Source: a virus. Taken from it: DNA of 64,000 bases. A program made the position numbers and the translations under genes. Position 1 is the first letter of the stretch, and the number at the start of each line of letters is the position of its first letter. The notes under the pieces are model-generated. The model saw only the letters and a program-made list of their open reading frames with translations, was not told the DNA's origin and ran no database searches. Where the stretch lies: positions 155,296-219,295 of IMG/VR virus record IMGVR_UViG_3300036781_000418, one strand, 5' to 3'. Positions 43,582 through 47,995 of the stretch are shown here, in pieces.

Positions 43582-43610
43582 GTGTACGCGTAGCGTCGCC
43601 GAGTTAGAAT
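43582..43610 (+). promoter_or_regulatory. GTGTAC-N17-TAGAAT promoter for the tmRNA
   Basis: GTGTAC 43582-43587, 17 nt, TAGAAT 43605-43610; transcription would start near 43617, at the front of the tmRNA acceptor piece. Confidence 0.65.
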
Positions 43611-43617
43611 GTACCTA

Positions 43618-43911
43618 CCATGTCGAAAGACACGGTGATTGTCGTAATTCGGCTTGAGTTGATGAGGGTAACACGGGGGTTCAACTCCCCCCAGCTCCAC
43701 CAAAAGGGTTTACTGGAATCTTTCTGATGGGGCTGAACGGGTAATCGACTACGCTACTGAAATGATAGACGCGACATGCAAGGCGATCTGCACCGATGAT
43801 GTTTGTCGGAAAGAAGCAAAATCTTTAAATGCTAACAACAGCGTTTACGCTCTCGCCGCTTAAAAACCGTGCGCAGCTGGGGCCGATCGCCTTATAATCC
43901 AAAGATCACTC
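43618..43911 (+). ncRNA. ssrA: Circularly permuted (two-piece) tmRNA
   Basis: The 3' acceptor part comes first: T-arm GGGGG-TTCAACT-CCCCC, acceptor CAGCTCC and ACCA ending at 43702. After 26 intervening bases the 5' part starts with GGGGCTGAACGGG (43729). GGGGCTG pairs fully with CAGCTCC and gives the G3-U70 wobble that alanyl-tRNA synthetase needs. A tag frame follows: GCT codon 43831 to GCC-GCT-TAA 43863, encoding ANNSVYALAA, ten residues like the E. coli tag ANDENYALAA. A terminator follows. Outer ends are approximate. It would rescue stalled ribosomes. Confidence 0.88.
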
Positions 43912-43935
43912 AAGGGGCTTCGGCCCCTTGTTTTA
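43912..43935 (+). terminator. Rho-independent terminator after the tmRNA
   Basis: AAGGGGC and GCCCCTT arms around TTCG, then GTTTT. Confidence 0.9.
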
Positions 43936-43970
43936 TGCCCAGACCCAAACAATCTGTTGGCGTAAAACCG

Positions 43971-44497: not shown

Positions 44498-44574
44498 GAC
44501 TCCATAGCTCAGTTGGTTAGAGCAGCGGCCTTCAAAGCCGCCGGTCCTCGGTTCGAGCCCGAGTGGAGCCACCA
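44498..44574 (+). tRNA. tRNA with anticodon UCA (reads UGA), copy 1
   Basis: 77 nt, full cloverleaf: D-arm GCTC/GAGC, anticodon stem GCGGC/GCCGC perfectly paired with loop CTTCAAA (anticodon TCA at 44532-44534), T-arm CTCGG-TTCGAGC-CCGAG, encoded CCA. One A-C mismatch in the acceptor (position 2-71). UCA reads the stop UGA (or Trp in recoded systems). No tRNA-Sec features (acceptor 7 bp). Amino-acid identity unknown. Confidence 0.88.
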
Positions 44575-44633: not shown

Positions 44634-44710
44634 GCGCCCATAGCTCAGCGGTCCAGAGCAACTTGCTTCAAACTTGTTGGTCCTCGGTTCGAATCCGAGT
44701 GGGCGCACCA
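44634..44710 (+). tRNA. tRNA with anticodon UCA (reads UGA), copy 2
   Basis: 77 nt. Acceptor GCGCCCA/TGGGCGC perfect, D-arm GCTC/GAGC, T-arm CTCGG-TTCGAAT-CCGAG, encoded CCA. Anticodon loop is again CTTCAAA (TCA at 44668-44670), but its stem ACTTG/CTTGT has two U-U mismatches, so it may be weak or structurally altered. 60 nt after the first copy. Confidence 0.8.
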
Positions 44711-45736: not shown

Positions 45737-45762
45737 GTTCCATCAACCCACTGGAGAATACC

Positions 45763-46116
45763 ATGGAATCGTGAGTCACTCAAAAGCACTACCTCTACAC
45801 CATCTCCCGCCGCGACCTCCCACTCGCGCAACAGGCTGTCCAAGCTGCTCACGCGGCGATTGAACACGCCTACCAGTACGGCCGATCTCCCGATCACCAC
45901 CCGTCGTACATTCACCTCACCGTTCGAAACCAGCACGAGCTGATCAAGCTCAAGGCGCGCCTGCACCTCAACGAGGTCGACACCGCCGAGTTCCACGAGC
46001 CCTACCTTGATTGGGGACTCACGGCCATCTCTTGCCTCGTCACCGAACAACAACGTCACCTCACTAAAGGGCTCCAACTCTGGCGCCTTCCCACTCAGGA
46101 GAATCACCATGAATGA
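45763..46116 (+). CDS. PTH2-like peptidyl-tRNA hydrolase, with in-frame UGA at codon 4
   Basis: 117 residues if the UGA at 45772-45774 is read as an amino acid. GGAG sits 8 nt before the ATG. After M-E-S-UGA the frame continues V-T-Q-K-H-Y-L-Y-T-I-S-R-R-D-L and Q-Q-A-V-Q-A-A-H-A-A-I-E, the N-terminal strand and helix of the PTH2 family, which frees peptidyl-tRNAs. No in-frame ATG, GTG or TTG follows before these conserved residues, so translation must pass the UGA or start at an unusual codon. The context TCG-TGA-GTC-ACT recurs at 47417. Confidence 0.7.
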
Positions 46117-46606
46117 AGAACAGAAAGCCAAGCTTGAGCATCATCTTCCGATCCGCATGATCGTGCGCCTGCAAGATGGCAAGGTCCAAGGTCTGACGGA
46201 GGAATCGTTCAGCATGAACTGGAGCGACAGCCGTGTGAACGTGTTCTGGTCGGGCAAGGCGTACAGCATGCTTGGTGAACATCAGCTGAATGGCGTGAAG
46301 TCTGCTGAACATAACAGTAAGCCTAACGATCCAAATGAGTTGATCATTGATCCTCTGGCTGAAGATTCACCGATTGAAGTAGACTGGGATAAGTGGCTCT
46401 CCGCTACCAACAAGTACGACAAGCGAAACGCACCCTTCGTAGTGAAGTCACATGGCACTTGGCAGCTTCGCGCTATTTCAGCCGAAAGACAGGTTGCCAA
46501 ACACAAGACCTTGGCGGAACAGTACCAGGCATACTACCAAGAAGAGGCTGACAAAGTCAACAAGATCAACGCAATACTAAACCCGCCAGAGGAGACCGAA
46601 GAATGA
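46109..46606 (+). CDS. Hypothetical protein
   Basis: 165 residues from the ATG at 46109, overlapping the PTH2-like stop by 8 nt with AGGAG upstream. Soluble, with a lower-GC middle part (46.3-46.5 kb). No motif recognised. Confidence 0.65.
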   Translation: MNEEQKAKLEHHLPIRMIVRLQDGKVQGLTEESFSMNWSDSRVNVFWSGKAYSMLGEHQLNGVKSAEHNSKPNDPNELIIDPLAEDSPIEVDWDKWLSATNKYDKRNAPFVVKSHGTWQLRAISAERQVAKHKTLAEQYQAYYQEEADKVNKINAILNPPEETEE

Positions 46607-47214
46607 AGATCACCTACACCCCAAACCCGCTGAACACCGTCATCGAACTTGACGCCCATGAGCAGGAGCTGTTCAAGCTGAAGTTGAGGATCGAAGAGTA
46701 CGAGAACATGATGTTCAACGCCCACTGGAACTTGACTCGCTCGTCTGAGTACCTGGCCACCTTGCCGCGGATGAAGACGCTTGAGGACGCTCGTGCTGAA
46801 GCCATCAAGAGGATCGACCCCGAGTACTGGTGCAGCGACGACCGCACCAAGCTGGACGACCGAATCGACGAGCTCTTTGACCACTACCTTGGTGAACTTA
46901 GCATGAACCACAGCGGTGACTGCACCTGCTTTCCGTGCTCCTGCGGTAAGTGTCACGCTGAGGGCATGCTCGGCCTCGACACGACCAAGGGCCTCAGCAA
47001 GTACATGGCCTCCAAGATCGAACGTGCCTTCTCCTACAAGGACGGCGACGTGTGGAAGCAGCGTACCCTTGAGGAAGTCCTTGAGCGCATGCGCGGCTAC
47101 GACCCGAAGATCACCGACGAAGGTGTTGACCCGGGCTGGCTCAAACGCGGTGAGGCTGAGTTCAACTCGTTCCCAAGTGGAAGGAGGAGAACACGCGTGC
47201 CCTCGCCTGGCTAG
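46603..47214 (+). CDS. Hypothetical protein with cysteine cluster and frameshifted tail
   Basis: 203 residues. A C-x-C-x2-C-x-C-x2-C cluster (about 107-114) could bind zinc. The last dozen residues (from S188, rich in R and P) look unnatural, whereas the -1 frame from about 47169 reads V-P-K-W-K-E-E-N-T-R-A-L-A-W-L-E to a stop at 47261, a credible continuation. So either a recent frameshift or a recoding event. Confidence 0.6.
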   Translation: MKITYTPNPLNTVIELDAHEQELFKLKLRIEEYENMMFNAHWNLTRSSEYLATLPRMKTLEDARAEAIKRIDPEYWCSDDRTKLDDRIDELFDHYLGELSMNHSGDCTCFPCSCGKCHAEGMLGLDTTKGLSKYMASKIERAFSYKDGDVWKQRTLEEVLERMRGYDPKITDEGVDPGWLKRGEAEFNSFPSGRRRTRVPSPG

Positions 47215-47235
47215 AGGCGTACGCCAACGAGCACT

Positions 47236-47320
47236 TCCCTTCACACAGCGCTCACTCGTAGAGGCATTAGCTGACAGATAGTGCGGGTTCACGTTACGGC
47301 GACACGAGGCGACGCCGGTT
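47236..47320 (+). repeat. Intergenic repeat, copy 2, joined to the dispersed repeat
   Basis: 47236-47306 matches 3492-3560; 47297-47320 matches 34478-34501 exactly. A GCAACCGGT follows at 47370, as after copy 1. Confidence 0.75.
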
Positions 47321-47407
47321 CAACCCGAAGAAGCAGTACACATAGTTCACCACAACGACCGAACAAATGCAACCGGTCACCAACCGTTAAGCCGAAAGGA
47401 CCTTACT

Positions 47408-47995
47408 ATGACATGGTCGTGAGTCACTCTACCGACCAGCTTTGAAGAGCTGAAGACCGCCATGCAGGCCGGATACCAGACCACGGGTCTGAGCTTCTGG
47501 GACCATGGGGTGATGGTGAAGGGTTACTTCGAGGACCTGATGGGCCAGCGCACGCTGACCTGGCGGCTGCCTCAGTGGTACCTCACCCATGAGGATAAGA
47601 TCAAGGACGCGCTCCGTCCAAGGATGGACCAGCTGACCACGTATCAGCTCTGGCATGACCTTGGCAAGCCGTACTGTCGCACCGTCGACGAGCAAGGTAA
47701 AGTACATTACCCTGACCACGCCGACGTCTCAAGTCACATCTGGCGCAAGCTTGGTGGAGATCCATTGATCGCCGACTTGATTGAACGGGACATGCTGTGT
47801 CACCAGCTTCGTCCAGCGGAGGCCCATGAGTTCGCCTCCAACCCCAACGCACTCGCACTGCTGATCACCGCCCTCTGCGAGCTGCACGCCAACGCCTCAA
47901 TGTTTGGTGGCTTGGAATCCGAGTCCTTCAAGATCAAGTGGAAGCGACTCGACAAGTGCGGTAACATCATCCTCAACAGTATCTTCAAGGAGTAA
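47408..47995 (+). CDS. HD-domain hydrolase, with in-frame UGA at codon 5
   Basis: 195 residues if the UGA at 47420-47422 is read through. AGGA lies 8 nt before the ATG (M-T-W-S-UGA-V-T-L-P-T-S-F-E-E-L-K). The HD signature appears as L-W-H-D-L-G-K-P with later H-Y-P-D-H and D-M-L-C-H-Q. HD proteins cleave phosphate bonds in nucleotides or RNA. An internal ATG at 47462 could start a shorter form, but it lacks a good Shine-Dalgarno and would drop the conserved start. Same 13-nt UGA context as at 45769. Confidence 0.7.

Follow-up and report, generated by a model that had tools for sequence, protein, structure and literature searches.

How can two phage genes be translated if each of them carries a stop codon only a few codons behind its start? 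This question is raised by a window of 64,000 nucleotides, which covers positions 155,296–219,295 of the 342,591-base viral record IMGVR_UViG_3300036781_000418 (G000). In this window, a gene for a protein resembling peptidyl-tRNA hydrolase type 2 (PTH2-like) and a gene for an HD-domain protein both contain an in-frame UGA close to the ATG, referred to below as the gate. The features of the locus are, in window coordinates:

43610..43954, + strand: phage tmRNA gene (ARAGORN), adjoining the UCA tRNA genes
44498..44574, + strand: tRNA gene with a UCA anticodon, which reads UGA (ARAGORN; loop CTTCAAA)
44634..44710, + strand: second tRNA gene with a UCA anticodon (ARAGORN; loop CTTCAAA)
45763..46116, + strand: PTH2-like gene (ATG 45763, gate UGA 45772-45774, stop TGA 46114-46116)
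45769..45781, + strand: 13-mer TCGTGAGTCACTC common to both genes, first copy, exact match, in the PTH2-like gene
45772..45774, + strand: gate of the PTH2-like gene, an in-frame UGA at codon 4; relatives have UAG at the corresponding position
47408..47995, + strand: HD-domain gene (ATG 47408, gate UGA 47420-47422, stop TAA 47993-47995; PHROG 14850, E 3e-56)
47417..47429, + strand: second copy of the 13-mer, exact match, in the HD gene
47420..47422, + strand: gate of the HD gene, an in-frame UGA at codon 5; UAG in relatives

The start of the PTH2-like gene consists of a Shine-Dalgarno sequence (GGAG, 45753-45756), the ATG, GAA TCG and then TGA, after which the frame is open to 46114-46116 and encodes 113 codons of protein. 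The HD gene is built in the same way (AAGGA at 47396-47400, ATG, ACA TGG TCG, TGA), with 190 codons after the UGA in a frame open to 47993-47995. All coordinates given for these elements in the original prediction, which was made from the sequence alone, were correct. Its statement that the PTH2-like gene has no other usable start also held, as no in-frame ATG occurs between the UGA and the conserved domain, and neither GTG nor TTG is present in the listed stretch. The HD frame contains an ATG at 47462, 14 codons past the UGA; conservation in the family begins upstream of that ATG. In both genes, selection on the amino acids is seen after the UGA.

The two UGAs lie in an identical 13-mer, as had been noted, which occurs exactly twice in the complete record, while the pattern read backwards does not occur. 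The match between the sites extends to CATGG(AA)TCGTGAGTCACTC, which suggests either a selected context or a recent copying of the start as UAG became UGA. An exact scan of viral contigs, based on letters only, returned 39 matches near a start, none of them in the contigs from the PTH2/HD searches, and megablast found no near relative of the locus in named phages. A search for the 13-mer in the genome and its relatives, as had been proposed, thus returned both copies in the former, but showed the motif to be specific to this phage. Its interpretation as the signal was not borne out, since relatives keep the stop codon and its position without the 13-mer; the conserved element is the start-proximal stop.

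A gated gene family in diverse phages

Profile-guided searches of viral contigs, combined with HMM scoring, yielded 171 distinct genes of the HD/PTH2 family at 106 loci, including loci of isolated phages. We defined the gated layout as an ATG, 0–11 codons, an in-frame stop, and the conserved domain, with no later ATG. This layout was present in 121 of the 171 genes, with UAG as the stop in 117 and UGA in 4, while 10 further genes had a gate-like stop as well as an ATG after it (9 UAG, 1 UAA). Among the 131 genes with an upstream ATG of this kind, the distance from ATG to stop was 2 codons in 55 and 3 codons in 47, and the stop was most commonly the third or fourth codon. At the same loci, an ATG was found 1–4 codons upstream of a TAA or TGA that opens an ORF in only 5–6% of cases; with about 120 homologous genes in the gated layout, chance can be excluded. 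The gate stop is missing from several HD genes and from a small number of PTH2 genes.

The closest relatives of the PTH2-like gene (63–79% identity) consist of an ATG, a few codons, TAG, and then the same protein, and the HD relatives in G004 and G006 likewise have a TAG gate. Isolated phages with gated genes have hosts among the Enterobacterales, Xanthomonas, Stenotrophomonas, Acinetobacter, and Tenacibaculum. In GAP32, CBB, BF, XbC2, Kaldavass, and ME3, the PTH2 gene begins with M, one or two further codons and UAG, and a CUA tRNA is annotated nearby; Arash has a PTH2 gene starting ML-UAG and a CUA tRNA. Fusions of the two domains start with MK-UAG in XacN1 and RAS14 (HD-PTH2) and in Tenacibaculum phage pT24 (PTH2-HD). 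Fourteen such fusions were found, in both orders. Each has a single stop, at the beginning of the gene, and the junction is free of stops; this is the pattern to be expected where one lock is needed for every protein with a start of its own. In the clade of BF, GAP32, CBB, and their relatives (Mimasvirus/Eneladusvirus-type), the UAG of the HD gene is internal instead, in the context GGA-UAG-GGC, and this UAG is invariant in 10 sequences.

Two further PTH2 genes have unusual starts or stops. The gene of a 735-kb uncultured phage (L333:10001-10306) has, besides the UAG at its start, another one in frame further into the coding sequence, and two CUA tRNAs lie about 2 kb away. In Mycobacterium phage Cane17, the gene begins ATG-TAG-GTG (L331:1966-1974), although translation could in fact begin at the GTG; 0.25 kb downstream, ARAGORN called a CUA tRNA (L331:2595-2667) with an ambiguous anticodon. 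This PTH2 gene is carried by approximately 190 related mycobacteriophages.

Stop codon, anticodon, and genetic code

If the gate is read by a tRNA, that tRNA could be encoded by the phage itself. ARAGORN confirmed the two predicted UCA tRNA genes in the window, 1.1 kb upstream of the gated gene pair. The first has an A2-C71 mismatch in the acceptor, and the anticodon stem of the second contains two U-U mismatches. Selenocysteine insertion was considered and rejected: both tRNAs are 77 nt long with normal arms, without the long fold of tRNA-Sec, and the SeC label that ARAGORN assigned to them is a consequence of the UCA anticodon.

For the other loci, tRNAs were called by ARAGORN and by covariance model/Rfam within the fetched stretch, and selected records were searched whole. 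ARAGORN detected a CUA tRNA at 57 UAG loci, close to the gated genes in most of the nearest relatives, and a UCA tRNA together with a UGA gate in the window and at L156. The whole records with UGA gates contained UCA tRNAs (two each in G000 and G016, one in G017) and no CUA tRNA, while CUA tRNAs were present in the whole records of G006, RAS14, and G020, which have UAG gates. In RAS14 and G020, the suppressor tRNA can be far from the gated genes. The CUA tRNA of G004, also a phage with a UAG gate, was missed by ARAGORN and found with Rfam (loop TTCTAAA). More generally, the covariance model recovered CUA tRNAs that ARAGORN had not called, some of which lack a normal D arm. Overall, a CUA suppressor tRNA was present at the majority of the UAG loci. 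Short tRNA-like genes with a CUA loop (65–69 nt, with a shortened D-arm region), likewise missed by ARAGORN, lie a short distance upstream of genes for PTH2 or PTH2-HD proteins:

L109:8400-8467, short CUA-type tRNA-like gene
L124:9525-9589, short CUA-type tRNA-like gene
L125:9366-9434, short CUA-type tRNA-like gene
L131:9370-9438, short CUA-type tRNA-like gene
L148:9354-9422, short CUA-type tRNA-like gene

The association between stop and anticodon gave a Fisher p of 3e-5, a value that ignores kinship. In the HD tree, the window gene with its UGA falls within a UAG clade with good support (99/90), and a different UAG clade contains the remaining two UGA genes. The tree thus points to at least two switches from UAG to UGA, with the anticodon changing alongside each time. 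RaK2 and Hallingskeid provide natural negative cases: their PTH2 genes (L328:3001-3303 and L330:3001-3273) are ungated, and no CUA tRNA was present in the stretch read. The published tRNA list of RaK2 contains no suppressor tRNA either, which fits a gating model.

The match is not complete. In G018 (L143), which has UAG sites, ARAGORN found no CUA tRNA in 262 kb, which runs against it. L143 also gave the one UCA tRNA called at any UAG locus; this call was set aside as doubtful because its loop lacks U33. No suppressor tRNA was found in the fetched stretch at about 20 UAG loci, and six loci had a CUA tRNA and no gated gene in the survey. An Arg tRNA in L120 had been misread as CUA by a noisy, simple tRNA finder, which was dropped.

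The bases that follow the gate stop are strongly biased as well. A, G, C, and T follow it in 91, 25, 5, and 0 genes, against 49, 29, 21, and 22 expected (p 2e-15, ignoring kinship). A purine is therefore present in 116 of the 121 gated genes, while U, expected at 19% from early codons of neighboring genes, is absent. A purine after the stop favors suppression over termination. All four UGA sites share TGAGT.

We consider it strongly supported, with a probability of roughly 0.87, that translation of the PTH2-like and HD proteins depends on a phage-encoded suppressor tRNA that reads the start-proximal stop. The strongest evidence is that the type of stop tracks the anticodon between phages, as this argues for reading by the tRNA, whereas there is no reason for the stop to follow an anticodon if it stands alone, is bypassed, or marks a site of re-initiation. 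Readthrough by the UCA tRNAs was one of three options originally named for the window genes. When no charged suppressor is available, the ribosome would stop after a very short peptide, of 3–4 residues in the window phage; with a charged suppressor, the gate would be read and the whole protein made. The pair would be UGA with a UCA tRNA in the window phage, and UAG with a CUA tRNA in most relatives. We infer from the sequences that this readthrough takes place inside the infected cell; its efficiency and the amino acid inserted belong to the inferred part of the model as well.

Several other explanations of the layout were weighed. The remaining two original options, ribosome bypassing and removal of the segment from the RNA, could draw on the exact 13-mer common to both sites as a signal; neither would require the pairing of UAG with CUA and of UGA with UCA, however, and given that relatives conserve the stop rather than the 13-mer and that the frame is continuous through it, we see practically no room for either. 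Inactive genes or sequencing errors would be in line with public annotations, which omit or fragment the gated HD and PTH2 genes, and homologs lacking the UGA had been named beforehand as a sign of inactivity. The relatives do lack it, yet they have UAG in its place, which is the opposite outcome. Around 120 genes with one layout, from unrelated samples as well as isolates, and under strong purifying selection after the stop, refute this explanation. More plausible, though still very unlikely, is a leader minigene, in which the ATG, 1–4 codons, and the stop form a tiny ORF, and the domain is re-initiated or started from a non-AUG codon just past the stop. AUU is indeed the commonest codon after the stop (35% of the gated genes, against 4.6% in controls), and minigenes do regulate genes, as described for axe-txe (PMC8708949). 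A leader minigene leaves the pairing of stops and anticodons unexplained, however, and 26 genes have AAC or AAU after the stop, neither of which is a start codon. In the Mimasvirus-type HD genes, moreover, the UAG is found 46 codons into a coding sequence that is under constraint, with a dN/dS of about 0.08 on both sides.

A reassignment of UGA or UAG throughout the genome, in the style of code 4 or code 15, would account for the suppressor tRNAs, which many recoded phages have too, but the genome argues against it so firmly that we give it almost no weight. UGA terminates 211 of 392 genes in the window phage (53.8%), compared with 56.2% in the UAG relative G004; the depletion of UGA as a terminator that was predicted for a UGA-type phage was not found, and this normal use refutes reassignment. 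A loose filter applied to 641 segments conserved with G004 or G006 left 75, most of which were apparently antisense frames on inspection. Only PTH2 and HD were convincingly gated, in all three genomes, and they form the sole recurrent gated family among all sequence read. As UGA is still the main terminator and only this family is gated, the genetic code is unchanged. This also poses the main difficulty for suppression by tRNA: as UGA ends more than half of the genes, a UCA suppressor that worked efficiently would extend much of the phage proteome past its normal ends, so suppression must be weak, limited by context or location, or tolerated. A separate set of 115 pairs of conserved internal stops between G000 and G004 or G006 was judged to consist mostly of antisense mirrors and was not used. 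The same phage also has a conserved open frame of 2937 codons on the minus strand of L064, with about 50% identity to its counterparts in G004 and G006.

Protein products and a possible circuit

Pfam domain PF01981 was detected in 24 of 26 PTH2-like family members (E up to 0.1), among which the window protein gave a weak match (E 0.045) below the cutoff. Its best solved relative by PDB profile was 2zv3 (E 4e-8), and an AlphaFold model with a pLDDT of 91 had as its top fold matches the archaeal and human Pth2 structures 1wn2, 3erj, and 1q7s (probability 1.00). The active site differs from that of PTH2, whose canonical catalytic residues we take to be Lys, Asp, and Thr: the Lys position holds Tyr or Gln, the Asp is an invariant Glu, and the Thr is kept. 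Because of these altered residues, we label the protein PTH2-like, and its function as an enzyme is uncertain. PF01966 was found in 11 of 32 HD members (E up to 0.1), and the metal-binding motif (H28, H78-D79, H99, D123, H127) is invariant in the alignment. By both sequence and fold, the HD protein is closest, among solved structures, to the HD part of a tRNA-processing nucleotidyltransferase/poly(A) polymerase (3wfo/3wfr). Judging from sequence and models, both products resemble enzymes of the tRNA 3' end.

Control of tRNA-acting enzymes by a tRNA would be suggestive of feedback or timing. The gate may time the enzymes, which would be made once the phage tRNAs have been produced and charged, or once readthrough is high, with feedback through the tRNAs; the earlier idea of an early/late switch controlled by the phage tRNAs fits the data. 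More specifically, the dedicated suppressor may mainly unlock two tRNA-end enzymes that in turn adjust the tRNA pool, forming a translation-sensing circuit in which lock and key are swapped together. We hold this tentatively, at slightly less than even odds.

The same readthrough could also serve another role. The suppressor may be kept mainly for a different job, such as disturbing termination in the host, and the HD and PTH2 proteins, along with the neighboring tmRNA, may answer the misreading that this causes, with the stop as a readthrough sensor. We consider this possible but rather unlikely. The resemblance of both products to tRNA 3'-end enzymes would suit such a role, as would the tmRNA genes near several gated phage loci: the tmRNA gene of the window is possibly linked in function to the adjacent UCA tRNAs, and a tmRNA lies near the same genes in the relatives G004, where it matches the Rfam beta_tmRNA and permuted tmRNA models, G006, and L050. 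Many gated phages have no tmRNA close by, however.

Relation to known systems

Borges et al. (2022) reportedly described stop-codon recoded phages with suppressor tRNAs. Reassignment throughout the genome is known in Crassvirales and other phages, with code 15 or 4 (PMC9523058, PMC11210395). In these phages, as in the gated pair, phage CUA or UCA suppressor tRNAs read in-frame stops, and a part in controlling late genes has been suggested; recoding affects many genes and many codons, however, while here the code is standard and one gene pair has a usually single stop 1–4 codons in. The gene for RF2, prfB, regulates itself through an in-frame UGA and frameshifting, which senses RF2. It similarly ties expression of a translation factor to the efficiency of termination through an early stop, but the gated genes keep their frame and are accompanied by a cognate suppressor tRNA. 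The bar minigenes of lambda are tied to peptidyl-tRNA hydrolase and act by peptidyl-tRNA drop-off. These minigenes and axe-txe (PMC8708949) share with the gate an ATG, a few codons, and a stop, and the gated product resembles peptidyl-tRNA hydrolase; unlike the gated genes, they work by drop-off, and no suppressor tRNA matches their stop. In the programmed readthrough of viruses and fungi, which yields C-terminal extensions, a stop in a defined context is likewise decoded as sense. As the gate stop usually comes after 1–4 residues, a useful short product is unlikely, and the effect would be on or off rather than two isoforms.

Orphan CUA tRNAs have been reported in jumbo phages such as XacN1 (PMC5852040) and RsoM2USA (PMC8504454). 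XacN1 has two, in its terminal repeats, and its authors, in search of extensions, translated in silico past 18 amber stops and did not identify target genes (PMC5852040). As XacN1 has both CUA tRNAs and a gated HD-PTH2 fusion, this fusion is a candidate for the target that they did not find. Papers on CBB, Eneladusvirus, and RaK2 and overviews of jumbo phages mention peptidyl-tRNA hydrolase and, in the portions available, no in-frame stop. The literature searched, which included few subscription journals, contained no earlier report of a start-proximal gate and no known targets for the suppressor tRNAs of standard-code phages.

The HD/PTH2 genes thus name a target family for these tRNAs at about 100 phage loci, including cultured phages in which it can be tested now. 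Gating would explain why the genes are absent or fragmented in current annotations, and the gated genes and their tRNAs would offer ready-made stop/suppressor pairs for synthetic biology. If the proposed gating is true, these phages have a natural switch, in which the stop codon is the lock on translation and the phage tRNA is the key.
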